Below, in pieces: positions 2,926 through 52,654 of a stretch of DNA of 64,000 nt. The notes under the pieces were generated by a model. That model was given only the letters and a program-made list of their open reading frames with translations. It ran no database searches and was not told the DNA's origin. Both the position numbers and the translations under genes were made by a program. The stretch's first letter is position 1; each line of letters opens with the position of its first letter. Origin of the DNA: Diplonema papillatum. Taxonomy: Eukaryota; Euglenozoa; Diplonemea; Diplonemida; Diplonemidae. The stretch spans positions 62,001 to 126,000 of the forward strand of contig JAPJBO010000501.1 in assembly GCA_030068145.1 (NCBI GenBank), written 5' to 3'.

Positions 2926-3273
2926 CGCCTTCTCCGCCGTTCGCAGCCGCCGCCCGCTTCCGCTTCCCGGCGGCTCCGCCGCCGGTAGCTTCGGAGGCGG
3001 CAGCGGGGGGGCCGTCGTCGTCACCTGCCGCCGGTTCGGCGTCTTCCCGCCGTCGGCGCTTGCCCGTCGGGGCGGAGACGGCCGGCTGGCTTGCCGCCGC
3101 CGCCGCCGCCGGGGCGGGGCGCTTGCGCTTGACGATGCGCATGGTGTCGAACAGCGTCGTCTGCCGCGCGGTGGTGGTGCTCCGGCGGAGCTTGAGCGAC
3201 GGGTCGGCGTTCGCGAGGTACGTGCCCTTGTACGGCTGGTGCGTGGTCGGGTCGATCTCGAACGCTGCCACGC
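2923..3273 (-). pseudogene. Truncated copy of EXO1 last exon, intronic (copy 2)
   Basis: This repeats the acceptor region and the first ~115 codons of the last exon (MAAFEIDPTTHQPY through the Ala/Glu-rich segment). It then breaks at 2922 into an unrelated segment that adds a short tail and a stop. The acceptor and the preceding ~35 bp are also duplicated, so it could be an alternative terminal exon. Differences from copy 1 include a missing Glu-Ala stretch after AAGDD. Confidence 0.8.
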
Positions 3274-3424
3274 CTGCAATTTGTTTTTTGCGTAGCTGAA
3301 GTTCGCTTGAGAATCCGGGATTTTAGAGTCTTCGAATTATGTTTATGGTGCAAGTATTTTTATGCGGGTTTTGAGGTAGACAGATACGGTGTTTTGGAGT
3401 CTCCGGGGGGTGCAGATTTAGACT

Positions 3425-3530
3425 TTAACCTTGGCTAGCCTAGGCGTGGGTGATGGCGCCGGAGGGGTAATCTCAGGGCCGCCCAAATACCAGGGCAGCA
3501 AATTCTCTGAGAACTTAGTATTGGGCCCTC
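3425..3530. repeat. Dispersed segment with GGGGTAATCTCAGG core, copy B
   Basis: Near-identical to 2820-2925, including the right junction to EXO1 exon sequence (TTGGGCCCTCCCTCGCC). The shared junction shows block duplication rather than two insertions. Confidence 0.6.
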
Positions 3531-3690
3531 CCTCGCCTTCTCCGCCAGCCGCAGCCGCCGCCCGCTTCCGCTTCCCGGCGGCTGGTAGCTTCGGGGGCGG
3601 CAGCGGGGGGGGACGCTGGCCCCGTCGTCGTCGCCTGCCGCCGGTTCGGCGTCTTCCCGCCGGCGTGCCGCGTGAGACGCGCGCGGGGGA
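3530..3690 (-). pseudogene. Degraded copy of EXO1 last exon, intronic (copy 3)
   Basis: Only the middle of the exon is recognisable (RREDAEPAAGDDDG and GKRKRAAAA-type sequence), with deletions and frame changes. Its left junction is the same foreign segment that truncates copy 2, so copies 2 and 3 arose by duplication of a larger block including that junction. Confidence 0.65.
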
Positions 3691-3925: not shown

Positions 3926-4002
3926 CTGGGTCAAATTCGAGACTTTCATGACGTCCAAAAAGTGGCGGCCCAAGACTGCATTCATAGCGAATTCGTACTT
4001 GG

Positions 4003-4325
4003 TCTCGGTCTCACTAGGCACAAACTTGGCTACCCATAGTTAACGTGTGCTGTTCCACTGGGATAACACTGCCGCGTCCTGCACCTGTCCCCTCAAAAGG
4101 GAGGGGCCCAGTTTCAAACAAAAATACCCGTCGGCAGGCCCGCCCGAAGGAAGCAGCCAGTCTCGGTCTCACTAGGCACAAACTTGGCTACCCGTAGTTA
4201 ACGTGTGCTGTTCCACTGGGATAACACTGCCGCGTCCTGCACCTGTCCCCTCAAAGGGGAGGGGCCCAGTTGGTTCAAACACAAATACCCGTCGGCAGGC
4301 CCGCCCGAAGGAAGCCAGTCTCGGT
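4003..4325. repeat. Two tandem ~160-bp units in the EXO1 intron
   Basis: TCTCGGTCTCACTAGGCACA begins at 4003 and again at 4164, and a third partial start lies at 4319. The units differ by small indels (for example AAAAGGGAGG versus AAAGGGGAGG). No coding potential is seen. Confidence 0.85.
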
Positions 4326-4598
4326 CTCAATGGGCGGAAGCCTGCTTCCGGTCGACAGGTCGCACGGGTAGCTTCCTTGAAGAGAGGGCATGACCGATAA
4401 AAAGATCCGGGGTTTCCGAGTCTCCGGGCGACCATCGTCGAAAGGGCCTCTTGATGGGTATCGTGTATTGGTATGCCGTATCTTGTTTGTGGTAGAAGCA
4501 GGGCATGTGCGTGCGGCTTGGTTTCCCACTACCGTTGTGGATTTGATGGGTTTTAGTACCAATGAAATGCCTTGGTATTTCGAGGAAAGGAAGCGTAC

Positions 4599-5725: not shown

Positions 5726-5965
5726 TACGCGTAGCAGTACCTACACGCATAGCAGTATTTACACGCGCGGCAGTACACACACGAAGAGCAGAATATACAC
5801 GTAGCAGTACATACGCGAGTAGCAGAACATACACGTGTAGCAGTGCTTACACGCGAAGCAGACTACACACGTGTAGCAGTGCTTACACGCGTAGCAGAAC
5901 ATACCCGCGTAGCAGAATATACACGCGTAGCAGAACATACACGTGTAGCAGAATATAGACGTACT
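5726..5965. repeat. 18-bp minisatellite upstream of EXO1
   Basis: About 13 imperfect units of the type TAGCAGAACATACACGCG, just upstream of the EXO1 start on the minus strand. It would lie in the promoter or 5' leader. No recognisable core promoter element was seen beside it. Confidence 0.85.
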
Positions 5966-7008: not shown

Positions 7009-8037
7009 CAAGCTGGCGCTTATGTAAAAAAAAAAAAAAAAAAAAACAGATTCGGAGGGACATGTTACACTTGAACTTGGGAGACCCTTCTATTATTCCC
7101 TCCCCCCAGTTGGGCAATTCGAATCGGCCCAGACGTCTCAATCACAAACCCCAGTGAAGGAGCAATGATTAAGATTTGAACGCACCTCCAACTCTTACCA
7201 CGCGAGGGTTCAGGGACTTTTAACCCTTCTTTTCAAAGTTCTTTGATTTTTCCATCACTGTACTTGTTCGCTATCGGCCTCCGGGAGATATTTAGCCTCA
7301 GCAGAGGGATACCTAAACTGAGCGACTCGTTAGCTCAGGGCCCTGCGCAACTGCACTTCGTGTTCGCGCTCGGATTATTCACTCATGCAAAAGAGAAGGG
7401 AACCCGGCTACGGGGGCAACAACTTAGAGGAAGGAAATGGAAGCGCGTCCTCCCCCCCTTCTCCTGTTCTTGGCGCAGAATGGGGCCGTCGTCGTAAACG
7501 TCGTGCTCCGAGCCTGCGCATTCTATTAAGAACTTTTCGCCGCTCAAGATCGTCTGGTGCGCGTATCTTTTGTAGCGGGGGGTGTTACAAGGGGAGCACT
7601 GCTTTGTTAATGTGTGCAAGGAAGGGAGCATACAACACTGAAAACAATAAAATGGCGACACTGCGCCGTCAACGTTGGAGAGCCATGTCTTGGTAGTGGC
7701 TCGTGGAGGGAACGGAAGGAAAGGAAGCTTCTTGGCAGGAAGTACTTGAAGGGACACTTCTGGCTGGGGGCGGCAACTCTCTTTGGAAGGCGGGGACGCT
7801 ACGAATGCGATGACATTGTTTTATATTCATATATTTTACGCCTCACGAGCCAATTCACTTACCCCCCTGAAAGCGACCTGTGCTCGATTACGCGGCGATT
7901 AAGAGGTAAGTCGCAAAGCAGAGCAGATGCAAATTATCGGCACAGATTATTTGCATATGCTTATACCTTAAACGATTACACTCTGCGAAAACTCGATTAC
8001 GTTTTACAAGCGTCGACAACGTTCGATATCGGGCAGG
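7009..8037. other. Spacer, no gene recognised
   Basis: It starts with a 20-base A-run at 7027. Open frames near 7383-7757 (both strands) have no family match that I can see. From about 7840 to 8037 the sequence resembles blocks at 54660-54770 and 55010-55170 (GAGCCAATTCAC, GATTACG and GATATCGGGCAGGGG-like pieces), a dispersed non-coding family. Confidence 0.5.
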
Positions 8038-10584: not shown

Positions 10585-12060
10585 TCAACGTAATGGCCCA
10601 AACTTGGGCCATTACATCAATGTAACGGGCAGAATTTGACGGAAAACCACTGTTACATCAATGTAATGGGCCAAATTTGACCGAAAACCACTGTTACATC
10701 GATGTAATGGGCAGAATCTGACGGAAAACCACTGTTACATCGATGTAATGGGCAGAATTTGACGGAAAACCACTGTTACATCGATGTAATGGGCAGAATT
10801 TGACGGAAAACCACTGTTACATCAATGTAATGGGCCGAATTTGACCGAAAACCACTGTTACATCAATGTAATGGGCCAAATTTGACCGAAAACCACTGTT
10901 ACATCAATGTAATGGCCCAAATCTGACGGAAAACCACTGTTACATCAATGTAATGGCCCAAATCTGACGGAAAACCACTGTTACATCGATGTAATGGGCA
11001 GAATCTGACGGAAAACCACTGTTACATCAATGTAATGGGCAGAATTTGACCGAAAACCACTGTTACATCAATGTAATGGCCCAAATTTGACGGAAAACCA
11101 CTGTTACATCAATGTAATGGGCCAAATTTGACGGAAAACCACTGTTACATCAATGTAATGGGCCAAATTTGACGGAAAACCACTGTTACATCAATGTAAT
11201 GGCCAAATTTGACCGAAAACCACTGTTACATCAATGTAATGGCCCAAATCTGACGGAAAACCACTGTTACATCAATGTAATGGGCAGAATTTGACGGAAA
11301 ACCACTGTTACATCAATGTAATGGCCCAAATCTGACGGAAAACCACTGTTACATCGATGTAATGGGCAGAATCTGACGGAAAACCACTGTTACATCGATG
11401 TAATGGGCAGAATTTGACCGAAAACCACTGTTACATCAATGTAATGGCCCAAATCTGACCGAAAACCACTGTTACATCAATGTAATGGGCAGAATCTGAC
11501 GGAAAACCACTGTTACATCAATGTAATGGGCAGAATTTGACCGAAAACCACTGTTACATCGATGTAATGGCCCAAATCTGACGGAAAACCACTGTTACAT
11601 TGATGTAATGGGCAGAATTTGACGGAAAACCACTGTTACATCAATGTAATGGCCCAAATTTGACGGAAAACCACTGTTACATCAATGTAATGGGCAGAAT
11701 TTGACGGAAAACCACTGTTACATCAGTGTAATGGCCCAAATTTGACCGAAAACCACTGTTACATCGATGTAATGGCCCAAATCTGACGGAAAACCACTGT
11801 TACATCAATGTAATGGCCCAAATCTGACGGAAAACCACTGTTACATCAATGTAATGGGCAGAATTTGACGGAAAACCACTGTTACATCAGTGTAATGGGC
11901 AAATTTGACCGAAAACCACTGTTACATCAATGTAATGGGCAGAATCTGACGGAAAACCACTGTTACATCAATGTAATGGCCCAAATTTGACGGAAACCCA
12001 CTGTTACATCAATGTAATGGGCCAAATTTGACCGAAAACCACTGTTGCAACTTGCATCAA
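10585..12060 (+). repeat. 41-bp palindromic minisatellite, left arm
   Basis: About 36 units, each containing TTACATCRATGTAATGG followed by a CARAATYTGACSGAAAACCA-type stretch. TTACATCGATGTAA is a perfect 14-bp palindrome present in many units. Units vary at a few fixed positions (A/G in the palindrome; CAGAA versus CCAAA; C/G in GACSG) in a patchwork that suggests repeated internal exchange. Confidence 0.95.
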
Positions 12061-12218: not shown

Positions 12219-12769
12219 AAAAAAATTTTTTTTTTTTTTTAACATGTCGACGCCCGTAGGCAACGGCTTCACTGGGCCGGATTTAACGTCGGGTTAGAAA
12301 CTGAACTGATACTGAAAGAAAAATGGAAACGGGGAGGAATTCGATTGTCGGGGCTTCCTGCAAACTGATCCCCCCATGTAGGCCTTACTAGTGACGGCCG
12401 GGTAGGTCAGGTGGAGCGCCCGTGACTGACAGATGCAGCTAGACAGTGTAGGCTTAGACCTATTCTGTAGCCTGTTACGCTAATGCCTTGACAACTTGCT
12501 GTTCGAGCCCTTATCACTGGGACTTGTGCACTGACTAGCGAGACTGAGCGAATGTACACATGGTACACGGCTGAATGTGTACATGCTTCGATGCATACGT
12601 GCATGCGCGTTGCACATAAGTACGAGAATATGGCAGTAACGGCAGGGCCGTTGTCGAAAGTCACAGTGCAGACCTGAGCCACCGTTCACACCCCCGAAAA
12701 AAAAAAAAAAACCTTTCATTCTTGGCCGACTGTTCAAAAAACTGTCTTTTTCAGTTTTTGCGCCTTTGA
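12219..12769. other. Foldback-element spacer, no gene recognised
   Basis: It holds A/T homopolymers (12220-12240, 12698-12712) and short alternating purine-pyrimidine pieces near 12555-12610. Two overlapping minus frames of about 90 codons show no domain. Confidence 0.5.
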
Positions 12770-14180
12770 TGTAACAGTGGTTTTCTGTGAAATTCGGCCC
12801 GTTACATTGGTGTAATAGTGGTTTTCCGTCAAATTCTGCCCATTACATTGATGTAACAGTGGTTTTCGGTCAGATTCTGCCCATTACATCGATGTAACAG
12901 TGGTTTTCCGTCAAATTTGGGCCATGACATTGATGTAACAGTGGGTTTCCGTCAAATTCTGCCCATTACATTGATGTAACAGTGGTTTTCCGTCAGATTC
13001 TGCCCATTACATCGATGTAACAGTGGTTTTCCGTCAAATTCTGCCCATTACATTGATGTAACAGTGGTTTTCCGTCAAATTCTGCCCATTACATTGATGT
13101 AACAGTGGTTTTCGGTCAGATTCTGCCCATTACATCGATGTAACAGTGGTTTTCGGTCAAATTTGGCCCATTACATTGATGTAACAGTGGTTTTCCGTCA
13201 GATTCTGCCCATTACATTGATGTAACAGTGGTTTTCCGTCAGATTCTGCCCATTACATCGATGTAACAGCGGTTTTCCGTCAGATTCTGCCCATTACATC
13301 GATGTAACAGTGGTTTTCCGTCAAATTCTGCCCATTACATCGATGTAACAGTGGTTTTCCGTCAAATTCTGCCCATTACATTGATGTAACAGTGGTTTTC
13401 GGTCAGATTCTGCCCATTACATCGATGTAACAGTGGTTTTCGGTCAAATTTGGGCCATGACATTGATGTAACAGTGGTTTTCCGTCAAATTCTGCCCATT
13501 ACATTGATGTAACAGTGGTTTTCCGTCAAATTCTGCCCATTACATTGATGTAACAGTGGTTTTCCGTCAGATTCTGCCCATTACATCGATGTAACAGCGG
13601 TTTTCCGTCAGATTCTGCCCATTACATCGATGTAACAGTGGTTTTCCGTCAAATTCTGCCCATTACATCGATGTAACAGTGGTTTTCGGTCAAATTTGGG
13701 CCATTACATTGATGTAACAGTGGTTTTCCGTCAGATTCTGCCCATTACATCGATGTAACAGTGGTTTTCCGTCAAATTTGGGCCATGACATTGATGTAAC
13801 AGTGGTTTTCGGTCAGATTCTGCCCATTACATCGATGTAACAGTGGTTTTCGGTCAAATTTTGGCCATTACATTGATGTAACAGTGGTTTTCCGTCAGAT
13901 TCTGCCCATTACATCGATGTAACAGTGGTTTTCCGTCAAATTTGGCCCATGACATTGATGTAACAGTGGTTTTCCGTCAAATTCTGCCCATTACATCGAT
14001 GTAACAGTGGTTTTCGGTCAGATTTGGGCCATTACATTGATGTAACAGTGGGTTTCTGTGAAATTCGGCCCATTACAGTGATGTAACAGTGGTTTCCCGC
14101 CAGATTTGGCCCATTACATTGATGTAACAGCGGTTTTCGGTCAGATTTGGGCCATTACATTGATGCAACAGTGGGTTTCC
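12770..14180 (-). repeat. 41-bp palindromic minisatellite, right arm
   Basis: About 34 units of the same 41-bp repeat as the left arm, in reverse orientation, with the same set of variant positions. Together the two arms make an inverted repeat more than 1.4 kb per side. Confidence 0.95.
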
Positions 14181-14306
14181 GTCGGAAAATCTTCATGCAG
14201 TTTTGGGGAAAAAATATTCCCACCAGAGGGGGGGGGGGACCCACCCACCAAAATTTTGGCGAAAGTAGTGGGCAGTTGGCCCGCCCGGGTAATAATCCGC
14301 TGTCCC

Positions 14307-17740: not shown

Positions 17741-17930
17741 CAAATTCAGACCCCGCTCCAGAAGCCGTCCCTGACCCTTTTCCGCTTCTCGTCCCCGTTC
17801 ACGCTCGCTGCGGCGGTGCGCAGCCCTTCGAGGGTCGCGCCGAGTTCACGCGCGTTGGAGCCGATCTTGAAGCACCACGCCTCCGGCAGGTTCGGCGGCG
17901 AGAATGGATCAGGGTGCAAGCAATATTTTT
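17741..17930 (-). pseudogene. Partial duplicate of the NTPase second-exon end
   Basis: The minus frame reads LPEAWCFKIGSNARELGATL and onward to EKRKRVRDGFWSGV, matching LLEAWYFKIGSNARELGATL and EKRKRVRDGFSEG of the exon at 18065-18545. The upstream part is replaced by unrelated sequence and the donor G-GTGTGG is lost (GAGCGGGGTC). Confidence 0.8.
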
Positions 17931-18064
17931 TCATCGGGGATGGGCAAAAGAGCTAAAGTTTAATCACAGTAGTACTGTGGTGTTCGAGAGTGGGCAAGGG
18001 TTTAATCGAGGATGGGCAAAGAGCTAATTAGCATTCGAGAATGAGAAAAACGGGCTAGCCACAC

Positions 18065-18545
18065 CTTCCGAGAAGCCGTCCCGAACCCTTTTCCGCTTCT
18101 CGTCCTCGTCCACGCTCGCTGCGGCGGTGCGCAGCCCTTCGAGGGTCGCGCCGAGTTCGCGCGCGTTGGAGCCGATCTTGAAGTACCACGCCTCCAGCAG
18201 GTTCTCGGCGCCCGCCGCCCCCGCGGCCGGGGCGAGCGCGGCGTACGGCCCGCCGCCGGCCGCGAACTTGAGCTCGCACGCGCTTTCGAACTCCGAGAAG
18301 AACAGGGCCGGCACGTGGACCACCCGGCAGATGTCGCCGTGCTTCTGCAGGGAGTCGGTGACCGCAGCGATGCTTGACTCGACCACGATCGGAAACCGCG
18401 GCTGGTCGTACGTTTGCGTGCGGCAGAACTCTCCGATGGTCTCGCCGAGTCGCCGAGCTTCGGCGTAGTCGTGGTCACGCTTGTGCTTGTCCCCCAGGTT
18501 GATGTACAGGACGAGGTGCTTGCCCGAAATGTCCACTTTGGCGGT
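18065..18545 (-). CDS. Probable second exon of the membrane NTPase gene
   Basis: The exon starts after an ACACAG acceptor with TAKVDISGKHLVLYINLGDK and runs about 160 codons to a G-GTGTGG donor after RVRDGFSEG. HLVLYINLGD resembles the strand plus acidic residue that follows the Walker A domain in P-loop NTPases, and the long helical segment after it fits a STAND or AAA-like ATPase; this is inference. A P-loop exon lies 5 kb upstream on the same strand (23712-24687). The first ~60 bp of this exon are tandemly amplified upstream, fused to rRNA sequence. Confidence 0.6.
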
Positions 18546-19410
18546 CTGTGTTTCAAAGTCGTTTCCTCGTTCCATCCAGAATTGAAGTATTCGGTAATGA
18601 TCCTGCTGCAGGTTTGTCCCCCCAGGTTGATGTACAGGACGAGGTGCTTGCCCGAAATGTCCACTTTGGCGGTCTGTGTTTCAAAGTCGTTTCCTCGTTC
18701 CATCCAGAATTGAAGTATTCGGTAATGATCCTGCTGCAGGTTTGTCCCCCAGGTTGATGTACAGGACGAGGTGCTTGCCCGAAATGTCCACTTTGGCGGT
18801 CTGTGTTTCAAAGTCGTTTCCTCGTTCCATCCAGAATTGAAGTATTCGGTAATGATCCTGCTGCAGGTTTGTCCCCCCAGGTTGATGTACAGGACGAGGT
18901 GCTTGCCCGAAATGTCCACTTTGGCGGTCTGTGTTTCAAAGTCGTTTCCTCGTTCCATCCAGAATTGAAGTATTCGGTAATGATCCTGCTGCAGGTTTGT
19001 CCCCCAGGTTGATGTACAGGACGAGGTGCTTGCCCGAAATGTCCACTTTGGCGGTCTGTGTTTCAAAGTCGTTTCCTCGTTCCATCCAGAATTGAAGTAT
19101 TCGGTAATGATCCTGCTGCAGGTTTGTCCCCCCAGGTTGATGTACAGGACGAGGTGCTTGCCCGAAATGTCCACTTTGGCGGTCTGTGTTTCAAAGTCGT
19201 TTCCTCGTTCCATCCAGAATTGAAGTATTCGGTAATGATCCTGCTGCAGGTTTGTCCCCCAGGTTGATGTACAGGACGAGGTGCTTGCCCGAAATGTCCA
19301 CTTTGGCGGTCTGTGTTTCAAAGTCGTTTCCTCGTTCCATCCAGAATTGCAGTATTCGGTAATGATCCTGCTGCAGGTTTGTCCCCCCAGGTTGTTGTAC
19401 AGGACGACCC
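18501..19410 (-). repeat. Chimeric exon/rRNA array, 255-bp higher-order repeat
   Basis: Seven units alternate 128 and 127 bp, differing by one C in a C5/C6 run, so three full 255-bp pairs are present. Each unit joins, on the minus strand, the end of SSU rRNA plus ITS1 start (GCAGCAGGATCATTACCGAA, then TACTTCAATTCTGG) to the acceptor and first ~60 bp of the exon at 18065-18545. A 255-bp pair keeps the reading frame, which gives an open frame of 470 codons with an 85-residue period. The units are otherwise almost identical. Confidence 0.93.
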
Positions 19411-19502
19411 GCAATGGCCACTTTTGCGGTCTTTTTAGCGTTTATTGTGTGGTTTTTGAAAGTCGGATCCTCATTCCATTCAGAATTGAATTTTTGGGTT
19501 AT

Positions 19503-19680
19503 GATCCTGCCGCGGCTTCACCGACAGCAACCTTGTTACGACGTTTTGCTTCCTCTAGCTGAGCAACATTGCTTGGATTCGGGTGCTGGACTTGTTGAGC
19601 TTCCCTCTCCCAAGCTCTATCTCACAGCCAATCGGTAGCAACGACGGGCGGTGCGTACAAATGGCAGGGACGTAAAACAG
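19503..19680 (-). rRNA. SSU rRNA 3'-end fragment (relic), with ITS1 start
   Basis: The minus strand carries ACGTCCCTGCC, a TACGCACCGCCCGTCGTTGC segment (normally TACACACCGCCCGTC), GAGGAAGCAAAACGTCGTAA, CAAGGTTGCTG and a final GGATCAT. It is followed at 19440-19500 by ITS1-like sequence that leads into the chimeric array. Only ~175 bp of the rRNA are present and they carry substitutions, so this is a relic and the probable source of the rRNA half of the array. Confidence 0.85.
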
Positions 19681-19854
19681 TGCAAGCTGATGACTTGCAC
19701 CTACTTCGCACTCCTCATTCAAGGAGAACAATTGCAACCATCGTTCCTCATCACGACGCAAATTCAAAAGGTAGGCTCTCAAACTCGTTTATTGCGTCAG
19801 TGTAGTGCGCGTGCAGCCTAGTGCAGTGATGGGTGCGCACAGCATGCCGTGCAC

Positions 19855-20238
19855 ACTTTCTTTTGTATAAGCACCTGCTTTGTAGGAAATGCTTGAGGAG
19901 ACTGCCAGTTGCGATAGACAAAGGAGGGAAATGTGCTGTAGCCCACGAAACACAGGTAAACCTGGGTTCTGCGGCGGGCGTAAGCGTTCAACAAAAAAAT
20001 GCCGAAGCAGCTCGATAGGTGAGCTGGTGATTGGGACTGATGTCCCGTCCCTTTTTTCATTCACCGCCAACAACCGCCGTCTCTCGACGGTGTTGAAGGT
20101 CGCCCGCGGTCGAGGGCACCGCGGAAGCCGGGCAGCGTTCAACAAAAAAGACCCACTTTGTAGTTGTATTGTTTTCTCCCCCTCTAGCCTCCTTCGAAAT
20201 GAGCACAAGGCAGTCCCTCGAGTATTTTTTAAAATCGG
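19855..20238 (-). mobile_element. MITE-like family E, copy with nested insertion
   Basis: In reverse orientation to 55319-55535, this copy runs from TTTTGTATAAGCACCTGC to CAGTCCCTCGAGTATTTTTT. Its inner ends read TACTCGAGGGACTGCC and TGCTTGAGGAGACTGCC, an imperfect inverted repeat. An extra ~130 bp (about 20000-20128) lies between two copies of GCGTTCAACAAAAAA and is absent from the 55-kb copy. Confidence 0.7.
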
Positions 20239-22265
20239 CGTGCACGCGTGCGCGCCGTTTGGCTACACTGCGCCGTGCGCAGCCGTGGGGGGGGCCAAAG
20301 ACAATAGGTAGTCCATAGGTACGCTGGAATGGGGGTTTCGGTGAACAGTGTTTCGGAATAGACTATTATTTGTTCCCAGGGGTGTTTTGCAGGAGGTTCG
20401 TTCCACGGGCTTTCCCTCGCGAGAGCAGCATCTTTTTCAGAGTGCAAGTTCACTTAGAGATCCGGGGTTATTGTCTCCGGGTTCCTACTACTTGATTTCG
20501 CTATCGATGGCATTTTCCTCAGACAGAGAGGGGCAACAGTTTCTAACGGCCACTCGGAAACAAAGAATTGGCGCGCTTCCTGGACCGACGACCCGTGGAA
20601 GCTGCGCTACCTCACGGACGGTCTCACATATTCATGGACTGCAGCTGAGGAAACGCAGGGGAAATGTGACTTGATGTGGGAGGTGTGGCCTCCTCGTTAC
20701 AACGGGGTGGCCAACCGGTGTGGGTCCCGAGGCACGAACAGCTGTGGAGACTGCTATTCGAGCACCCGTAGGCGGCACTCTGCAACCGGACTGCTGGACA
20801 CGTGCCGTATACTCGTGCCAACCACACCCGAGAAGTCCCCCAGAATCTCGGCACAAACACGCGAACACAAGGCCGGCGATAGTGCACGCCTGTAATCGGT
20901 CTCGGCCCCGAATCAACCACCACATGCCGGACCCCGCCTCGTTCGTCGGTGGAATTGCCCTACTTCGGCCCACGAGAGCGTGTCCGAGGAAAAGCCACGA
21001 CCGTTGCTGCGAAACGACCGACCACCCGAAGGCACGACGAGGCAACCTCGAAGAGCGAAGAATCGAAGGAGGCGAAGAGGGTTGGAGAAATAGCTCACCA
21101 AACCAAGCCAACGCTGAGCTCTATCACTATGAGAGTAATCGACATAATCGAGCCTGATCGAACTGAAAAGTGAATTTAGGAGTGCCGCACCATCCGCCTC
21201 AGGCGGGGGAATTTACGGCCGCGTGTCCACTCATTCAGCGGCTGGTGTCTTAAGACAGCGTCAGCAACACAATTCTGCTGTCATTGCCGTCTGTGCTTCT
21301 GAGAGCACCCCGTCCTTTCTCTCTCGAACGAGGACAAAAGCAGCCAAGTAGTAGTAGTAGTAGTAGTAGTAGTATGTGTCGTCTGCCGAAGCAGCCGGAG
21401 ACAGCAGGCGCAGGGGGCAGGTCTTGCTTTACAATTCTCTTCTTCATGGAGACCCGCCCCCGGCAATCCAGACTGTCCAATCACTGTCGAGAAAGGTTTG
21501 TGCCCTATAGTGATGAGGTGGTTGACCAGGCCCCCACGAAGCCTTATACACAACACGGCTACAACACGAGGATGCAGCCCTGCTTAGGTGTGCACTCGTG
21601 CAGTCAGCCATCACAGGGCCCCAGATCTCGCTACTTGACCTGACACAGCTGCCACCCAGAAGGCCGCAGCAGTAACCTTCGCAATGAAGGCACGCGCGGC
21701 TGAGTGTATGTAGGCGATCCATACAACAGCTGCATCAGACGCAGCTTGATCCGAGACCTCGCTAGGGGAGGTGACGCTGCTCACCTGCCAGTCTCTCAAC
21801 TGACTGCTGCCCCGCAAAGCAGCCAAGAAAAAAAAGAAAACCCTGATCGAACATGTTCGAGCCTGGTCGAGCGTAATCGCCGCCAAAAAGCCAAAAAAGG
21901 AGATTTGGGGGGTGCTGGTGTATGGCTCATTATCGCGTAGTAAACTTGGAATGAGAATGAAAGCGCTTGCATCGCAACATGGAAACATGAACCGAACTTA
22001 CAAAAAAAGACATAGCACACAGATAGAAAGCTGCGAGAGACAAGTGCACTAGCAACCAACAATACAGTCTCCTGGTCCAGAACGGGAGGGCGAACAAAGA
22101 CGCAAACGCCCACAGACCCCCCAGGAAAAGCCCGCACCGGCGATACAGCACCGCGCCAGACCACCCTGATTTTTTTCTTTTTTCGTAGTCGCAACCGCAA
22201 CCGTAGCCAGGCTTGCCAGTCAGGGAGAAGAACGGAGCAATATTTACAAACAAACGAGTGTGACT
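20239..22265. other. Spacer, no gene recognised
   Basis: It holds a copy of the GATCCGGGG/GTCTCCGGGT motif near 20443, a TAG trinucleotide run at 21345-21375 and several overlapping frames of 90-180 codons without motifs. Low-confidence minus frames at 20632-21111 and 21796-22335 have no domain that I recognise. Confidence 0.45.
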
Positions 22266-23057
22266 TTAGGTGGCCGCTTGAGCGGCACCAATCCGAGCGC
22301 ACACAGCAGCAGTGACGCGTCGGCAGTATTTGCACTTCAGGATGGGGCTGCCGTCATGAGTGTCGACGGCTAACGAGTGTCGGCAGAGGGTGCAGTGGTC
22401 GGAGCAAGCTTGAACGTGGCAGGTCGGTGATGAACAAATGAGTTGTCGATGTATTGTAACGCGTTCACGTTGCGCATGTGTCGCGCAGCCTGCGAGATCA
22501 CGCGCTTCCGGGGGTCGTCCCGATCCGGTCCCACACGCCTTCATGCCTTTCCGCGTCTTCCGCGGCCTCTGCCTGGTGGCCCCCACCACCCGCTGGACCC
22601 TTCGCGTCCCACGCTACCCTGTCTGCCATCAGCTCCCGGATCTCCTCCATGTTCGACATGCCGAGGTCGCGTTGGAACACGTCGAGATAAGAAAGCGGAG
22701 GTCGGCCGCGTTTCTTCTTTCGACGCGTCGTTGCAAGAAGCACGCTCGACGCGAGTGCTCAGCGAAGCGGAGCCGCTTCCTCTGCAACTCCACTTCGATC
22801 CTCAGGAACTGATCCGCAAAGAGGTCATTTTTGCTACAGCGCGTCTCGCGACTATAGACCTTAATGCCTCGAACAAACCGAACAAGGCAAGTGTAAACTC
22901 CCGTGACCTCAGGAAGCAGGGAAGTGCCAACGTTCCAAGTTTCGGCGCCTGACAGAAAGACGGAAACCACGAGCGTTTTGAAAAACAAAACCTTTAGGTC
23001 GAGCCTAGTCGTGGACCGCCAAACAGACTTCAGTCTGTGTACTGCTACCCCGGCCAA
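22266..23057 (-). pseudogene. Relic of a non-LTR retrotransposon (RT C-terminal part)
   Basis: The minus frame contains LDLKVLFFKTLVVSVFLSGA followed by ETW, the segment after the RT domain in many LINE polyproteins (KxxLFKxxVxSxLLYGAETW). After a frameshift it continues as KKRGRPPLSYLDVFQRDLGM and then LMADRVAW, the common LINE tail. A Cys/His-rich stretch (CHVQACSDHCTLCRHSLAVD, then CKYCRR) follows in a third frame. Several frames are needed, so it is dead. Confidence 0.75.
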
Positions 23058-23271
23058 AGACTAGCTGTTGCTAGACTATCAGCATCCAGACTGTTTGAAC
23101 CCGGTTTTCTCTATCCTTCCCTCCAAATACTAGCTGCACGGAGGAGGGCGTAGGTAATCCAAATTTACATGTAAAATGGAGCGTGACAACATATTGTCCA
23201 TTTTTTCACGGGCGTGAAATATGCACAATTCCATATCACCACGCTTCCGTTACAAATCCTTCGATATTTAA

Positions 23272-23711
23272 GTTGAAGCGGGATAAAAGACTGTTGGATT
23301 TTGGCCCCCCCCTGTAGGACATTTACGTTGAAGCGGGATAAAAGACTGTTGGATTTTGGCCCCCCCCTGTAGGACATTTACGTTGAAGCGGGATAAAAGA
23401 CTGTTGGATTTTGGCCCCCCCCTGTAGGACATTTACGTTGAAGCGGGATAAAAGACTGTTGGATTTTGGCCCCCCCCTGTAGGACATTTACGTTGAAGCG
23501 GGATAAAAGACTGTTGGATTTTGGCCCCCCCCTGTAGGACATTTACGTTGAAGCGGGATAAAAGACTGTTGGATTTTGGCCCCCCCCTGTAGGACATTTA
23601 CGTTGAAGCGGGATAAAAGACTGTTGGATTTTGGCCCCCCCCTGTAGGACATTTACGTTGAAGCGGGATAAAAGACTGTTGGATTTTGGCCCCCCCCTGT
23701 AGGACATTTAC
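23272..23711. repeat. Eight perfect 55-bp repeats in an intron
   Basis: Exactly eight units starting GTTGAAGCGGGATAAAAGAC and ending GTAGGACATTTAC, with no differences that I could see. On the minus strand each unit begins with a donor-like GTAAAT and contains TACAGG and CAACAG acceptor-like sites. The array abuts the NTPase first exon, and the exon's own donor may be the first GTAAAT. Confidence 0.95.
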
Positions 23712-24687
23712 GAGCATCACAGACCTGCTTGCGGCGAGGCGAAGCGCCGCTGCCGTCGCTTTTGGGCGAGTCCGACGCGCAACAACCCTCCCCGTTGCTG
23801 AGCTCGGCCCGCAGCTCCGACAAGCTTTCGAGCACCGCTGCGTCGGGCACGGAGTCGTCTACTTTCAGGCTCCGCCGCAGCGGCTGCAGGACGTCGTCGA
23901 AGAGCAGCTGGTGCTGCGGCAGGCAGATCGGCGCGAAGCTCGGGTCTGACAGCAGCTTCTCGAGCAACGTCGACTTGCCGGCCGCCTTCACACCGGTCAC
24001 GAGGAAGAACCCCGGCTTCTTCTCGGCGTCGAAGTTTTTGATGTACCCCTCCAGCTCGTCTCCGGCCCGCGCGGAGTCGAACGCCGCGCTCCTGCGGTGG
24101 AAGAAGTGCACCGGCCGGGCGACGGCGTTCTTGCGGAGGCCGTCTTCCCGCATCTGCTTCCGTAGCGCCTTCATGGCGCTCCTCCGCTGGATCTCCGACG
24201 CGTTTTCGAGGTTGCCGGCGGAGTCGCGAAGCGACCTCTGCCTGTCACGCGCCGACGCGATGTTGTTCAGCACAGCGGCCACGAACATCGGGCAGCCGAC
24301 CATGGCTCCGAGCAACTTGTACGGCTCGGGTTCGGTCGAAAGGTGCAAACATCCGACGACAACCCACGCCATCCACACGAGGGCGAGGAACAGCGTCGTG
24401 TACCGTTTGGCCCGTCGTAGCCTCGTCGACTTGCAATTGCCCTCCGGGTCGAGCACGTACATGACGCCGATCAACCCGACCGACACCGCGGTCACGGCGG
24501 CCAAGAGGGGCCAGGTGGGCCGGCCCCATTGGTTCAGCAGGCACGCGCCGCCGTACTCGACCAGCGGCGGCTGGCACTTGCACACCGCCGGGCGGCCCCC
24601 GGTGCCCCGCGCGCAGTACTGGTCCGGCCGGCACTCGCAGTCGGCTTCCAAAGCGCTGACGCAGAGAACGAGAATGAAAGCTTGCAT
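23712..24687 (-). CDS. Membrane-anchored P-loop NTPase, first exon
   Basis: Residues 1-16 form a signal-peptide-like start (MQAFILVLCVSALEA). A Cys-rich, EGF-like stretch follows (CECRPDQYC, CKCQPPLVEYGGACL, residues 17-50). Three hydrophobic segments lie near 60-79, 96-113 and 125-142, then a basic linker and a cytosolic P-loop TGVKAAGKSTLLEKLL (residues 231-246). This fits a membrane-tethered ATPase or GTPase with an outward Cys-rich head. The frame ends at a donor, either AAGCAG/GTCTGT (23725) or CTC/GTAAAT (23712). The likely next exon is at 18065-18545. I recognise no specific family and no substrate can be inferred. Confidence 0.72.
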
Positions 24688-25090
24688 TGGTCTACCCCCC
24701 TTGGAACCTGGATGAGAATGAAGGCTTGCATTGGTCTGCGCCCTTTGGAACCTGGATGAGATTGAAGGCTTGCATCGGTCTGCGCGGAACCTGGATGAGA
24801 ATCAAGGTTTGTGTTGGTCTGCGCCCTTGGAACCTGGATGAGAATGAAGGCTTGCATCGGTCTGCGCGGAACCTGGATGAGAATGAAGGCTTGTGTTGGT
24901 CTGCGCCCTTCGAACCTGGATGAGAATGAAGGCTTGCATTGGTCTGCCCCCCTTGGAACCTGGATGGGAACGAAGGCTTGCATTGGAATGCGCCCTTTGG
25001 AAACTGGATGAGAATGAAGGCTTGCAGTGGTCTGCGCGGAACCTGGATGAGAATGGAGGCTTGCGTTGGTGTTTCCCCCTTGGAACCTGG
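24660..25090 (-). repeat. 38-44 bp minisatellite made of the gene's start codon region
   Basis: About ten units read, on the minus strand, ATGCAAGCCTTCATTCTCAT then CCAGGTTCC. The real gene starts ATGCAAGCTTTCATTCTCGT, so the repeat is an amplified copy of the initiation codon and first signal-peptide codons (MQAFILI) followed by a donor-like CAGGTTCC. Two further units lie at 52660-52760. Confidence 0.9.
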
Positions 25091-26436: not shown

Positions 26437-27310
26437 TCAGCCAGCGTGCCATTCAAGAGGTCTTGCTCGGGAGGTGTTGTGGAATCTCGCGAGTTGTTCC
26501 GGGGACGGCTCCTGCAGCCCGCTGGGGGCCTGGGGCGTGTGCGACGGCGGGTAGCACTTGCTGATGTAGTAGTGGATGTGCGCGTCGCTGGCTTGGGCGA
26601 GGGTCAGGTGTGCACGCAAGTGCTGGAACAGCGCTTGGGGGGTTGTCGTGGAGGGGTCGTCGTGGGGGAATTGCTCGCGGATGTCGGCGTGCCACGAGGA
26701 CCAAGGCGGGTCGCGGCGGGAGATGGCTTCGGAGATGGCTTCGGAGAGGTCTTCCGAGAACATGTACGCGCCGGTAACTCTTTTGGCGGCGAACTTGAAG
26801 ATGTCGTCGTCGCTGCGCTCAGCACCCTCGGGGGACAGCTTGATGTGCATGACCAGCGCCTCGATTTCGGACAGATGCTCGTACACTGCTAGCGGGAAGA
26901 GATACTTGCGTCGAACCTGGAAGTCGATAACTTTTTTATACGGCAGCCCACGGCCACTGCCTGACAAGGGGAGGAAAGGTGCTGTCTCGGGATCGTCGAA
27001 GGAAGCGAGGATCGGGTCCCACGAAAAGCTTACGGGCGTGGGGTTGGGGTCGGCGCTGTCCATCAGCAGCACGCTGCCGTTGTTCGCGAAGGCGCGGGAG
27101 CTCATGCTGGGCCAGAGGGTCCCGTAGTAGTTGGACGCGGAGAAGACCGTGAACACCAGCCCCGAGTGGTTCACGCTGACCCCCTCCGGGCTTTTGCACT
27201 GGTGCGAGCGGATTACGTAGCGGAGGCCCTCGGCCGCTAGCCACCGGCGCGTCAGCCGCTCGCCAAACACGTATCCGGTTCCTCGCGGGCTTGTATCCCG
27301 CTCGCCGGCC
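26437..27310 (-). CDS. PPP-family Ser/Thr phosphatase, C-terminal exon (copy 1)
   Basis: After an AACAG acceptor the frame reads AGERDTSPRGTGYVFGERLT, matching the PPP segment RGxGxxFG, then LRYVIRSHQCKSPEGV (conserved RxH) and VFTVFSASNYYG (the FSAxNY motif near the C-terminus of the catalytic domain). About 180 further residues form a family-unique helical tail ending PLEWHAG. The N-terminal catalytic half is absent here. The best partner is the exon at 46285-47014 on the same strand, 19 kb upstream. A SEAISEAIS duplication distinguishes this copy from 63138-64000. Dephosphorylation by a two-metal centre is the family reaction. Confidence 0.85.
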
Positions 27311-29336: not shown

Positions 29337-31655
29337 TTACTTTATGACGTCGTCACCTGTCATTGCGTCGTCAAGGTCGAGTACTTGTGGCGCCAGGGGC
29401 GCTGGGCTTTCTTGCGGTTCTGGAGATTGCGTGGGGGGGCACAGGTGCGGACAGGCTTGCACGTTTTTCACTCTCGAGGGCACTGGAGTGCTTGGGGACG
29501 TCGGACGTTTCTGGTAGCCGCTTGCTTTAAGGGCCTTCCTCTTTTTTCGTTGCACCCCTGACTCGGGTGTGGTCGCCTTCGCCTTCTTCCGCTTGCGGCC
29601 GGCGATCGGGCTCTCCTTCGGGGTGCCGAGCACCCTCTTCTTCAACGCTGGTCGTTCGCCGGTCCCTGGCGTTGGTGGCGGCCTCTTGGCCGCCCGTCCG
29701 GTCGTCGCCGTCTTCTGCTTCACCACGGCGGGCGGTGCCTGCGCCGCGCGCTTTCCCGCCGGTGTTTCTCGTTGTACGCCCACCTGGGTGGGTGAGAGGG
29801 GTCTCTTCTTCTTTTTGCTGTGTCCGGGGGTTGCCGGGGCGTTCGGTTCGTTGGGTTGGTGGTGGCCGCGGCGGCAGCACGCTGCCGGTCTCCTCTGCGC
29901 CAACGTAGGGAGCCTCCTGCATTCCTGGCAGGTTCCTCTGCCATGCGTGCGGCAGGCATGATGCCCGCTGCGGCAGCACGCCGCCGCCGTCTTGCACTCG
30001 CCGCATTTCGTCGTGCTGTGCTCCACGCACACCGCGATCGGCTGCCCATCGTCAGCGTGGTGATGGTGCCGACAGCACATCTCTACCGTGGGCACGTCCC
30101 TTCGGACGAGTGCTCGACACGCCTCACACTTCCCCTTGTGGTGGGTCGCGCAGGTGACGAGCGCTTTCTCTACTCCGACACCCGGCATATGCACGGGGTC
30201 GGGGTGCAGCTGTGGTGGGGCAGGCAGGGCCCACCTCGCCGCTCTCTCGGCCGTCCAGTCCGGGTACGTCGGGAACTGCGTCCCTACATCGCTTCCCTTC
30301 ACCTGCTCTTCGAGGATCGTCCCCGTGTGTGCCTCGCGAAAGCGGGGCCTGGGCCGCACCCCCGATATCCCCGTGATGCCCATGAACGACAGCGACGTCG
30401 TCGGGCATACTCTCTCGCCTCGCTCGCAACTCCCCAGCCCTTGCTGTGTCGCCAGCTTGTCCAACGCGCTGATCATGCAGCGCAGGACGTTTCCTCGCTC
30501 CCTCACCCCCTTCGGTGCATTCTCGTGCAGCGGTATGCTGAGGCCTGAAAAGAGTTCAAAGTCGATGGCAAGCTCTAGCATTGACGCCTGCCCGTTCTCG
30601 GTCCACTCCATGTCTGACAGCCACGCTACCAACGCATAAAACGTCGGTAGCCCCCAGGCCTTGTTCCGCTCCCACGCCCATGCCGGGGCAATCCGCGCAA
30701 AGGGGTGGTCGAGCTTCTCGGCAGGCATCGCATCCGCTCTCGACCAGGGGGTCGTGGGGTTCCTGGCTACCCAGCCTCGTGCTTCGAGCCCTGCCCGCTC
30801 CGCAAGGATTTCAGCCATCATCTCCTGGAGCCGCCTCGAGAAGTGGGCATTCTCGGGTACTACCACTCCGTGTTCCAGCGTGCATCTGGGCCAGTCGGCG
30901 CGGTTGGCCGCCATCAGCTCGGCATGTGCCTCTCGTCGCCGTATGTGCGAGTACGCTCCGCAGTCCCAGAATACGTGTTTCTCGTCCTCGGTGTCGCCGC
31001 TTCCACAGTGCTTGCAGCTGGGCGCCTGCGGCTCAGCTCCGGCCTGTCTCATCCGCGACGTGAACTCAGCCGTGTTCACTCCTCCCGCCAACGCTACACG
31101 TATAAGCCTCGCGGTGTGCGCGGGACATTCACGCATCCTCCAGAAGGAGTTCGTCCGCTCCAAGTCGGCTCTCTGTACACCCTCAAATCCCGGCCGCCTC
31201 GCTACCAGACGGGACCACGTCTTCGCCCTCAAATCCGCCCTCACTTCATGCCCCCTCTTCGAGGGTGTCGAGGCTATCGGGTCAAATATTGCACCATTCC
31301 TCAGCGTGCGAGACAGGGGCCCTGGTCCCCATACGTGTCCACACTCCTCCATGCTCTTCATCGCCAGTCCAACTGGCCCCAGGGGTAGGTCCTCCTCGGC
31401 GTACCTTCCCCGGATGCTCTCCATCAGAGGCAGAAGTCGTGGCAACCTCTCGCACGCCGCGTAGAACGCCGTCGTCACCCTATATGCTAGGCATGTACTG
31501 GGGTCCGTCACGTGGCCCTTCTCCTGAAAATTTAGGACCATCTCCCTCGCGCGCTTTGGGTTGGACCCACCCCAGATCAGTCCCATCACCGACGTCGTCA
31601 GCCGTTTCATTGCCACCTTCGACACCGGCGCGAAAGAGCAGCCGGAACGGCGCAT
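29337..31655 (-). pseudogene. R1 element: C-terminal part of RT polyprotein
   Basis: This frame carries the post-RT thumb region, a CxxC-H-C zinc knuckle near 31000, an MLELAIDFELFSGL segment shared with the other two families here, and a Cys/His-rich module (29930-30160: CATHHKGKCEACRA, VEMCCRHHHHADDGQP, CCRSGHHACRTHGRGTC). A Lys/Arg/Pro-rich tail follows. The frame is shifted relative to the RT catalytic core, so no full product can be made. Confidence 0.8.
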
Positions 31656-32862
31656 GGCGGAGGCCTTCCGCCAGGGCAGCCGCCTTCTCCACCTTCTCCG
31701 AGTCGGACCTTTCTGTCCTATTCTTCGCCGTCGAGACTAGGGCCCCCAGGCACGTGACAGATTTGCCAAACCGTAGCAGCGCATCCACGCTGCGGAGTCT
31801 GAGCGTCGACTGATGCCTACGTCTCGTCGAGAAGGCGACCGTTTTCTGGAGGTTCAGCTCCATTCCGGTGAGCGTGCAGAACTCGTCTAACACGTCCACC
31901 CCCTTTTGCAGGGCGGCCTCCGACAGCCGCGATAGCAGCGTGGCATCGTCCGCGTACGACTTTGGGCTCACCCCCTCCGCTTCTTTCTTGACCGCCTTCA
32001 TCACTACCGACAGCAGGGCATTGATGAGGATGACGGATACAGGGCACCCTTGAAGGATACCATTGGTCACACTAAACTCCCTGCCCACCCCTAGAGGCAG
32101 CTTGAAGCGTCTCGCGAGCAGTCTGTAGATCGCCCTCAGCGGCTTGAGAACCCGATTGTGCAACCCTAAGTCCCCGGCCAGGCGCAGCACTATCTCTCGC
32201 GGGACCATGTCGAAACATTTCCGGAAGTCCAGCGCCACCCCGTAGAGCGGCTCTCCATCTAGCAAGGCGTCCTCCATCTCGAGCCCTATCTCCATCAGGA
32301 CGTCCTCGATACGGTGACCCGGTCGAAAGCCCTTCTGTCCTTCTTCGATCCACTTCTCCTGCCACAGGACTATGTCCGCAAGCCTGCGGCACGCCCATAG
32401 GCGGTACACAGCGGACGTGACGGTTATTGGCCTCGTGTGCAGCGGGTCTTGGCTCTCATCCTTCGGCACCATCGACACCAGGGCAGTTGTCATGCTCGCC
32501 GGCCAAACCCCAGTCACTTCGACCAGGTTCATGACATCCGCTAGCGCATTCAGCAGGGGAAGCGGCAACTCCCGCAGTTCAGCCATGCGCCAGCCATCCA
32601 CGCCTGACGCGCTTTTCTTCGGCTTCTTCCTTAGCAGAGTCCGCAGCTCCTCCCCCGTGATCGTCCCGGGTTCCATCAAGTGTGTGTCGATGTGCTCCTG
32701 GAACCGATCCCGAAACGGTCCGTACTCCGGCTCTGGCCGGTCCTTGTATTTACGCAGGATAGCGTCCCACGCAGTGTGCAACACCTCGTCCATCTCGTCC
32801 ACATTTACCGTTAAGCATTGAGTTCTTTTAAGTACACATGAACCACATGGATTAGCATGCAC
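31480..32862 (-). pseudogene. R1 element: reverse transcriptase core
   Basis: It contains fingers and palm motifs of a non-LTR RT with an intact YADD box. The first ~17 codons from the predicted Met come from the unrelated 3'-UTR-like segment. The true start lies in a missing 5' part. Downstream of RFxLLFRAGVEGG the frame diverges from the expected sequence, marking the frameshift. Confidence 0.82.
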
Positions 32863-43612: not shown

Positions 43613-43684
43613 CCACTCATAGTCGGTGTCGTCGTCATCTGCCGTCCCTGTTACGTCCCCTCCTCCGACCAGGTTGGCCTCGCT

Positions 43685-46018: not shown

Positions 46019-46284
46019 GTGAAGGCCTCCAATAATACAAGGGGCCGGCACGTACAAACAAACACACGCCTATTATTTTTCGTAGTAACAAGGCTTTGTA
46101 AACACGAAAGAGAACGCTGGCAGCGTGTTTGGGAGAAGATTGGCATAACGATCATATTCACTCACTATCAATCACGAACAGGCTAATCCTCCCCCGGCGC
46201 GTACAAACAAATTAATTAAGCGGTAACAAATACTGTCTCCACGGGGAAGCAAAAATTGGTTGTCGCTCTAAAAAGGGTCCACAC
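46019..46284. other. Intronic spacer
   Basis: Contains nothing recognisable; by the proposed gene model it is the start of the very long phosphatase intron. Confidence 0.4.
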
Positions 46285-47014
46285 CTTCTGTCGGTAGCCC
46301 CCCGTGGAGGACCACCGCCGAGTTGTTCACGACGCAGGCAAGGGGCAGCCAGGCGAAGAGGTCCGTGCAGAGGAGGAAGAAGCGGTGGTTGTACTTCGCC
46401 ATGCATTCCGCGTAGAACCCGTAATGCAAGCCCATGGCCTCGGTCTCGTGGTTCCCCCGGTTGACGCACACGTTGTCGGGCCACACGCACTTCAGAGCAA
46501 GCACCAGCAGCAGCACCTCGCACGAGTTGTGTCCCCGGTCCACCAGGTCCCCATTGAACACGTACGTGATAGAATCGGCCTTCCCGTCGGGAAGGCCGTG
46601 GGTGTTTAAGATGTACAGGAGATCACCCAGGGACCCGTGCAGATCGCCGACTATGACGACCCGCCCGGACAGGTCGGAAACGGAAGGCTCGGGCCTGAAG
46701 ATGGCCGTCGCCCGGAGCACGATGTTCACGGCGTCCACGTAGCGGACCCTCTTCCCTCCCTGTAGGTCCTCGAACAGCGCCTTGACGGACTCGGCCGTCG
46801 GGCGCGGCGGCGCCGGCTCGCCCGCCGCGTCTGGGGGAGGCGAGCTATCGTAGCTGGCGGGCTCGGCGCCCTCCTGCGGGCCGTTCGCCACCCATTGCGA
46901 CGACCGCCTAAAGCTCGCGACCCCGCCGCACCGCACCGCCCGCGGCCCCTTCGCAACGAAGCCCCCGGCGACGTACTTCGCCGCAGCGCGGCCGCAGATG
47001 CGACTGAGCTGCAT
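46285..47014 (-). CDS. PPP-family Ser/Thr phosphatase, N-terminal exon
   Basis: It carries the PPP signature motifs GDLHG (VVIVGDLHGSLGDLLYIL), GDLVDRG (VFNGDLVDRGHNSCEVLLL) and RGNHE (NVCVNRGNHETEAMGLHYGF), then VVLHGGLPTE. The exon ends at a GAAG/GTGTGG donor, or the frame stops four codons later. The first ~45 residues (MQLSRICGRAAAKYVAGGFV, Arg-rich, no acids) look like an organelle targeting peptide. Then come a Ser/Pro/Ala linker and a helix before the catalytic domain. The middle segment that in PPP enzymes reads CDLLWSDP is not in this exon nor in 26437-27310, so at least one exon is missing or unseen between them. Confidence 0.87.
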
Positions 47015-52039: not shown

Positions 52040-52562
52040 ATGTTCACGGCGTCCGTAGCGGACCCTCTTCCCCCCTTGCAGGTCCTCGAACAGCGCCTCG
52101 ACGGGCTCGGCCGTCGGGCGCGGCGGCGCCGGCTCGCCCGCTGCGTCTGGGGGGGGACGTTGTTATTGGTGCTGGTTTTGAGGGATAAGGAATAAAGGCA
52201 AGGAATCTTTTTGCGGTGGCCTCTGCTGGTCTGGTAGTTGGTGCTACCTCCGTTCTTTTACACTCGATCTCTTTTCGACTCACTACTGTACGTACTCTTT
52301 CACTCTTTTGCTCTCTTTGGCTGACCAAAAAAAAAGACTCCTGCGGCCGACACCACGAACACATGCGCAATGCGTCTGGGAGGGGCGAGCTATCGTAGCT
52401 GGCGGGCTCGGCGCCCTCCTGCGGGCCGTTCGCCACCCATTGCGACGACCGCCTAAAGCTCGCGACCCCGCCGCACCGCACCGCCCGCGGCCCCTTCGCA
52501 ACGAAGCCCCCCGGCGACGTACTTCGCCGCAGCGCGGCCGCAGATGCGACTGAGCTGCATCT
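52040..52562 (-). pseudogene. Phosphatase N-terminal exon fragment with insertion
   Basis: The minus strand repeats the first part of the 46285-47014 exon (MQLSRICGRAAAKYVAGG and ASYDSSP, then AGEPAPPRPTAE-like sequence). One extra C near 52509 shifts the frame, and a ~220-bp insertion splits it at 52153-52373. The catalytic motifs are missing. It is a dead duplicate. Confidence 0.85.
52153..52373. mobile_element. ~220-bp insertion with flanking direct repeats
   Basis: It sits inside the phosphatase exon fragment between TGCGTCTGGGG and TGCGTCTGGGA, about 10 bp of target duplication; the intact exon has a single GCGTCTGGGG at 46829. It matches the repeats at 27335-27600. On the minus strand it begins beyond CGCATTGCGCATG and ends in a C-rich tract then CAG, acceptor-like. 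Confidence 0.72.
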
Positions 52563-52654
52563 TCGGTAGCATATCGAGCGCAGTGTTACCTCTGACGTTT
52601 TTTGGGAACCTTTGGGTTCGTTCCCGATCTGAAGCTCGCTGCCTAACCAGGGAA

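Follow-up and report, generated by a model that had tools for sequence, protein, structure and literature searches.

Dozens of genes in the diplonemid Diplonema papillatum have adjacent repeats, often tandem copies of the 5′ region or of the 3′ end of the first exon (PMC10161547). For one published gene, the array was backed by PacBio reads, had a decayed distal copy and was absent from the mRNA (PMC10161547). The same report describes ~3600 scattered 28S ribosomal RNA (rRNA) pieces, an assembly of ~280 Mb and ribosomal DNA (rDNA) units of ~7.6 kb (PMC10161547). Outside diplonemids, one Daphnia neointron resembles the D. pulex rRNA gene, with break repair proposed, and an earlier neointron resembling mitochondrial 16S is cited there (PMC4202315); introns of mitochondrial DNA origin have been reviewed (PMC3443670). 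Among the papers listed by our literature search for rRNA-derived introns or exonised rRNA, the Daphnia cases were the only ones found. Here we describe a D. papillatum locus where rDNA homology reaches the predicted donor, and to within a few bases the predicted acceptor, of a predicted intron in a putative membrane P-loop nucleoside triphosphatase (NTPase) gene, and where one of these boundaries is tandemly repeated. The locus lies in a 64,000-nucleotide stretch, hereafter the window (GenBank assembly GCA_030068145.1, contig JAPJBO010000501.1, positions 62,001 to 126,000; contig C501, 62001–126000, in our numbering). The origin of new introns is mostly lost; here the rDNA donor, both ends and the later history appear to be still readable.

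The array, the split rDNA piece, the reading frames, the codon bias and an uninterrupted paralogue were read from the sequence. Tandem arrays were delimited with Tandem Repeats Finder (TRF), and genome searches covered the 271-Mb assembly in 2910 contigs. In this assembly, a 24-mer of the Diplonema spliced leader was found 637 times (≤1 mismatch), compared to 0 for its reversed control, which fits D. papillatum as the source. The features of the locus are given below in gene order, in window coordinates; ITS1 is internal transcribed spacer 1.

24670–25090, minus strand: 44-bp tandem array across the start codon of the gene, unit containing ATGCAAGCCTTCATTCTC (TRF)
23725–24687, minus strand: exon 1 of the putative membrane P-loop NTPase gene, 321 codons (open frame, codon score; end predicted)
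23700–23729, minus strand: 5′ piece of the 18S fragment, rDNA unit positions 3106–3135 (alignment, 29/30 identity, E 6e-7)
23266–23712, minus strand: 55-bp tandem array, 8.1 copies, 99%, across the 18S/insert junction (TRF)
19822–23699, minus strand: 3.9-kb composite repeat insert splitting the 18S fragment (rDNA alignment)
19455–19821, minus strand: main 18S 3′ end/ITS1 piece, rDNA unit positions 3133–3536 (alignment, 83.5% including gaps)
19384–19430, minus strand: distal decayed copy of the exon 2 start (alignment)
18487–19407, minus strand: 127/128-bp tandem array, seven units (TRF, anchored units, rDNA comparison)
18027–18545, minus strand: exon 2 (TAKVDISGKHLVLYINLGDKHKRD...), with the predicted acceptor ACACAG ending at 18546 (open frame, codon score)
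17760–17900, minus strand: partial duplicate of the exon 2 3′ end, source 18071–18210, 141 alignment columns (alignment)

When one rDNA unit was compared with the window, two further matches, collinear and on the minus strand, were seen at the gene locus in addition to the array. By alignment, these two 18S pieces are a single rDNA insertion interrupted by 3878 bp, and rDNA positions 3133–3135 (CTA) occur on either side of the insert. The inner part of the insert has many genomic repeat matches (40 of 6334 first-look candidates scored). A 29-mer of the 55-bp array was found at 8 genome places, all within that array (≤3 mismatches; control 0). An original prediction, made from the letters of the window alone, had noted a small-subunit (SSU) rRNA fragment at the upstream end of the 127/128-bp array and suggested that it seeded the fusion between rRNA and exon. 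The fragment is present (Rfam SSU match at 19507–19653, 89 bits), but its true extent is 19821–19455 plus 30 bp located 3.9 kb away; a fusion seeded by it and then amplified is supported. This split rDNA piece and its predicted intron, which reach beyond the region covered by that prediction, are of greater interest than the array.

The 5′ 18S piece (23729–23700) holds the predicted donor CAG/GTCTGTGATG (slash, splice junction), and the predicted intron begins at 23724. In its longer context, AAGCAG/GTCTGTGATG, the donor is 18S-derived from the second A of AAGCAG onward. The 18S match also covers the last 5 bases of exon 1, and no non-rDNA intron sequence lies between donor and rDNA (29/30 match). 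At the other end, the predicted acceptor ACACAG/ACCGCC sits at the ITS1/exon junction (rDNA counterpart AAACAG/ATT), with ITS1 homology ending within a few bases of it. Foreign sequence that extends to the splice sites, as expected of an intron gained by DNA insertion, was found at the predicted donor and within a few bases of the predicted acceptor. The predicted intron ends (GTCTGT...ACACAG) are GT-AG, and the two exons, both in phase 0, join into an open frame. D. papillatum introns are GT-AG for the most part (PMC10161547). In a study of six species other than D. papillatum, the introns of the Diplonemidae were mostly GT-AG, with G/GTATG (three of the four species) and CAG; the predicted donor CAG/GTCTG and acceptor CAG/ resemble these (PMC12621601). 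These data suggest that the predicted intron probably originated as an rDNA insertion with an 18S-derived donor. The original prediction had proposed an rRNA-derived acceptor. An rRNA-derived splice site is indeed plausible, with the donor as the stronger case.

We assessed the coding potential of both exons with a codon model for which three other open frames in the window (four in the GT-AG join test described below) served as the training set. Exon 1 scored best of six frames over 24687–23736 (0.321 bits/codon, 0 stops, GC content at third codon positions (GC3) 0.89). It carries a Walker A motif (GVKAAGKST) and has the predicted end ...CGCAAGCAG/. Exon 2 likewise scored best of six frames over 18493–18066 (0.465 bits/codon, 0 stops, GC3 0.89). 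Against Pfam, exon 1 matched AAA_16 below the cut-off (E 0.0012); this sub-threshold AAA match was all that Pfam gave for the protein of the gene, and a PDB search with it gave no match. Genome-wide at E ≤ 0.001, exon 2 was found at its own locus and in one partial copy, the duplicate at 17760–17900 (protein match 86%). A 25-mer of the 44-bp array at the gene start occurred at 9 genome places (≤2 mismatches; control 0), all on this contig (8 in the array, 1 at ~52.7 kb).

A weaker genome match to exon 2 lies on contig C182 (locus L056; 35% over 58 amino acids, E 0.012). We observed there a 302-codon open frame with exon-1-like and exon-2-like blocks, uninterrupted and in the same order as in the gene. 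Its FLGPNGVGKST aligned to the exon 1 Walker A block with a score of 50, and its GCPLLLYVDVQ...YDQPTCPVVVEVS aligned to exon 2, from the eighth residue of the exon, with a score of 88 (0/1000 shuffles as good in each case). By BLASTP, exon 2 matched the C182 protein at 30% over 46 amino acids (E 2e-5). On these alignments, the frame is a distant paralogue in which the two conserved blocks are not separated by an intron. Because it holds both blocks in one frame, exons 1 and 2 appear to be parts of one protein. Just upstream of the paralogue frame, on the same strand, lie two 28S pieces (L056 2461–3083; rDNA unit 4235–4282 and 4280–4443).

The 127/128-bp array joins rRNA and exon sequence in every unit. 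TRF reported a period of 128 bp with 7.2 copies (98% matches) and a period of 255 bp with 3.6 copies (99%) over 18487–19407. Each unit consists of the 18S 3′ end and ITS1 start (~65 bp) followed by the start of coding exon 2 (~60 bp). The rRNA part of every unit (66 bp aligned) is 89–91% identical to rDNA. Outside one C run, the units are uniform in sequence, bar one substitution in the unit at 19260. Chance is excluded both for the repeat and for its rRNA match. Among the genome matches listed, the whole unit had no full-length match elsewhere; its rRNA part alone occurs at no fewer than 39 further places (40 of 217 first-look candidates scored). The array of fused units described in the original prediction is real. 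The alternation by one C that it reported was also seen in all seven anchored units (128, 127, 128, 127, 128, 127 and 128 bp), and falls in a C run of 5/6 letters. Strict alternation across seven units would have a chance of ~1/64 if the lengths were coin tosses (simple arithmetic). A homopolymer of 5/6 letters is a usual spot for sequencing error. Given both, the predicted higher-order unit of 255 bp is likely though unproven.

We joined exon 1 in silico to each of the seven CACAG/ACCGCC acceptors of the array. The last acceptor alone (18545; 1/7) kept the exon 2 frame. Acceptors 18800, 19055 and 19310 led to a stop after 39 codons, and acceptors 18673, 18928 and 19183 gave a frameshift that read on through the array and mistranslated the exon. 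The original prediction had held that the array stays open on the minus strand in a frame-preserving 255-bp period. One minus frame is open across the array (19441–18005, 479 codons), but it enters exon 2 out of frame, and the frame of exon 2 itself (18680–18027) is closed by a stop inside the next unit upstream. Frame preservation therefore fails, and 255 = 3 × 85 brings the gene no coding benefit, because the only array-wide open frame is the wrong one. In-frame amplification was ruled out by this splicing to seven acceptors.

We next compared the array with the distal copy. The distal copy of the exon 2 start differs from the true exon by 4 substitutions and an 8-bp deletion. Relative to rDNA, 6/64 sites differ in the rRNA part of the final unit and 9/64 in that of the distal copy. 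Sites 23, 26 and 28 of the 64 depart from rDNA in both, with different letters each time. Two states of the final unit, T at site 26 and C at site 46, are also present in a fragment near 57 kb of the window and in other dispersed pieces; they probably go back to an older rDNA sequence. Judged by the near identity of its units, the array is recent; the distal copy, by its changes, is old and decayed.

From these observations we infer the use of the splice sites, the origin of the intron by insertion, break repair and an order of events. A ~430-bp rDNA piece (18S 3′ end into ITS1) would have inserted into the coding sequence of the P-loop NTPase, probably during DNA break repair. The start of the piece, ...AGCAG/GTCTGTG, would serve as the 5′ splice site, and the end of ITS1, joined to the downstream coding sequence at ...AAACACAG/ACC, as the 3′ splice site. 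Because both sites are in phase 0, the insertion could be spliced out and the protein kept. Two later events would be the splitting of the rDNA piece by a repeat insert and the tandem copying of the ITS1/exon junction. The array would then sit inside the intron as six decoy copies of acceptor and exon start, with protein made from the last acceptor only.

Several observations weigh against this reading. The C182 paralogue is distant, the linker that holds the intron point is unconserved, and the alignment does not cover the intron point itself; intron loss in the paralogue is compatible with the data as an alternative to gain. The rRNA part of the array unit and the distal copy have no derived letter in common, so either the first duplication must have followed soon after the insertion, or rDNA inserted twice. 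A codon-based GT-AG join test that covered 51 sampled rDNA fragments (102 strand tests) was non-discriminating. The score was 19.3 here and 19.0 for the best other fragment, which is unrelated and antisense (L031); among 1,320 random placements, no fewer than 10 reached 23.4 or above. The join score therefore does not single out this locus.

A different history would start from a pre-existing intron in which the rDNA piece, and then the 3.9-kb insert, landed, with the donor moved to the 18S edge or already lying near it. Transposable elements occur inside a number of D. papillatum introns, chiefly long ones (PMC10161547), and rDNA pieces are plentiful in the genome. We consider this history unlikely: the donor directly abuts rDNA, the 18S match reaches into the last 5 bases of exon 1, and the distant C182 paralogue has no intron between the conserved blocks.

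Exonisation of the rRNA part of the last unit is doubtful. An acceptor CTGCAG/ at 18606 would add 20 in-frame codons (QDHYRILQFWMERGNDFETQ). The frame is open in this unit, whereas the corresponding rDNA frame has two TGA stops, and the simulated chance of having no stop after 5–8 random changes was 0.03–0.07. The loss of two stops looked striking as a sign of a selected peptide, but one of them (T to C) was also found in 8/20 other sampled loci, a comparison table that takes in true rDNA units, and in the 57-kb fragment. Because it is common to other loci, this change is probably an older rDNA state, which leaves one loss to explain, and the selected peptide was rejected as a candidate. The rRNA-encoded peptide of the original prediction is thus possible for the last unit (20 codons), but no clear selection signal was found there.

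It is very improbable that the array is an assembly artefact, whether a chimera with rDNA or a repeat whose copy number was collapsed or expanded. The short period, the homopolymer difference and the single assembly would fit such an origin. The rRNA parts of the units, however, agree with each other yet are identical neither to rDNA nor to the distal copy, and PacBio reads back the published assembly at another such array (PMC10161547). A chimera of rDNA reads, which the original prediction had named as one possible refutation, is unlikely for the same departures from rDNA in mutually agreeing units. Translation of the array in frame as 85-residue repeats is scarcely credible, since the 479-codon minus frame mistranslates the exon, all 6 upstream acceptors tested fail, and the array frame scores −0.06 bits/codon compared to 0.32 and 0.47 for the exons.

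To place the insertion of an rDNA piece at this locus in its genomic setting, we counted rDNA 23-mers across the assembly (≤2 mismatches, true rDNA units included). Two 18S 23-mers were found at 396 and 435 places, ITS1 at 225 and 28S at 422. The spacer between 28S and 18S was found at 169 places, and the controls gave 0 in all cases. The spacer and ITS1 counts point to rDNA or its precursor, rather than mature rRNA alone, as the source. Complete rDNA units on contig C217 were spaced 7628 bp apart. The 51 sampled matches with both ends visible had a median length of 173 bp (35–921) and varied ends. These samples, which also served the join test, excluded matches >1500 bp or ≤20 bases from a locus end. 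The 51 fragments are partly dependent (L022 and L025 are near-identical sets, and L087 was counted several times), and the sampled loci are best or first-listed matches, hence non-random. Two candidate element classes were rejected. An introner-like family should give many near-identical introns with the same ends, but the ends of the 51 sampled fragments vary widely. An rRNA-derived short interspersed nuclear element (SINE) should have fixed ends; the ends vary, and spacer pieces occur too.

We observed that many dispersed pieces end near an 18S hairpin (GCGCGC...GCGCGC, rDNA unit 3071–3110, noted from L035). The rDNA piece of the intron also starts in this region (3106). Left ends fell at 3091–3108 for 8/13 visible ends in 20 sampled loci (7/20 ends lay outside the fetched stretch). 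Among exact-match places listed up to contig C369, 49/93 had the downstream 23-mer without the upstream one and 56/100 the upstream without the downstream, a comparison in which mutated copies count as absent. This two-sided loss suggests breakage on either side of the hairpin. A one-sided reverse-transcriptase stop at the hairpin was rejected, as the loss of ends is two-sided. Folding of the hairpin region was no better than that of shuffled sequences (z −1.06).

Other rDNA pieces in this genome have also been amplified in tandem. Four clusters were inspected out of more among the matches listed, and rRNA pieces were in tandem in all of them: 86/97 bp × 3 on C73, where an open frame weakly matching LYR (E 0.013) follows directly downstream; 58 bp × 3 on C62; 291 bp × 2.2 on C36; and 354 bp × 3.3 on C314. 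The C314 unit is chimeric and includes a non-rRNA 54-bp repeat. A bolder extension, which we regard as a long shot, is that rDNA pieces, landing steadily in this genome, keep giving rise to new spliceosomal introns. The 18S donor CAG/GTCTGTG would lie by a frequent break zone, repair would start the tandem copying of boundaries, and the decoy acceptors could tune splicing. The locus is also a natural test of spliceosome choice among seven near-identical acceptors, and the hundreds of other rDNA pieces in the genome pose the same intron question.

Other features of the window were also recorded. A second rDNA piece, the 57-kb fragment (56969–57599; 18S 3′ end, ITS1, 5.8S and beyond), is 96.4% identical to rDNA, and a 28S piece lies at 7110–7314 (92%). 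An XPG-family frame (5706–4327) has one array at its 3′ end (4002–4329, 158 bp × 2.1) and another just upstream (5727–5961, 36/18 bp); this gene, too, seems to be flanked by repeats at either end. A 41-bp satellite makes up two arrays of ~35 copies each, 10612–12046 and 12766–14183; they face opposite ways across a gap of ~720 bp and so build a long inverted repeat. At 38054–45472, an 1852-amino-acid frame like that of a long interspersed nuclear element, with matches to OTU, endonuclease, reverse transcriptase and RNase H, follows a 595-amino-acid frame. A shorter frame elsewhere (31480–32862) also matches reverse transcriptase. Frames 26437–27270 and 63138–63959 are near copies of one another, and a 444-bp tandem duplication (62485–63352) overlaps the 3′ end of the latter. 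Frames 46268–47014 (calcineurin-like phosphoesterase, Pfam) and 52044–52748 have one stretch in common. At 60871–61538 lies a (CA)n repeat with 334 copies and 99% purity.

Compared to known systems, the locus combines processes that are each known, in a way that is real and striking, and it illustrates clearly how stray rDNA can remodel a gene. As described for repeat-bounded D. papillatum genes, it has tandem copies of gene ends beside the gene, with the distal copy most diverged (PMC10161547). Tandem ends were found beside the functional copy at exon 2 (seven units of its start plus the distal copy) and at the gene start, which lies in the 44-bp array. The exon parts of the units are identical apart from the C run, and the distal copy is more diverged. 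Here, in contrast to the genes described there, the array precedes exon 2 at its acceptor, and rDNA makes up half of every unit (PMC10161547). The dispersed fragments are, like the scattered rRNA pieces of D. papillatum, short and derived from rDNA. The published count (~3600) is of 28S, whereas 18S, ITS1 and spacer pieces were counted here too (PMC10161547). The passages on those pieces liken them to terminal-repeat retrotransposons in miniature (TRIM) and SINE and mention no intron; here, one piece meets a predicted intron (PMC10161547). The closest parallel for the intron is Daphnia, where inserted DNA, thought to arrive via break repair, likewise became a spliceosomal intron (PMC4202315). 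The Daphnia gain rests on comparison of natural populations, whereas the gain here is proposed from one genome (PMC4202315). The account of the Daphnia neointrons describes no amplified junction array, and such an array is present at the D. papillatum locus (PMC4202315).
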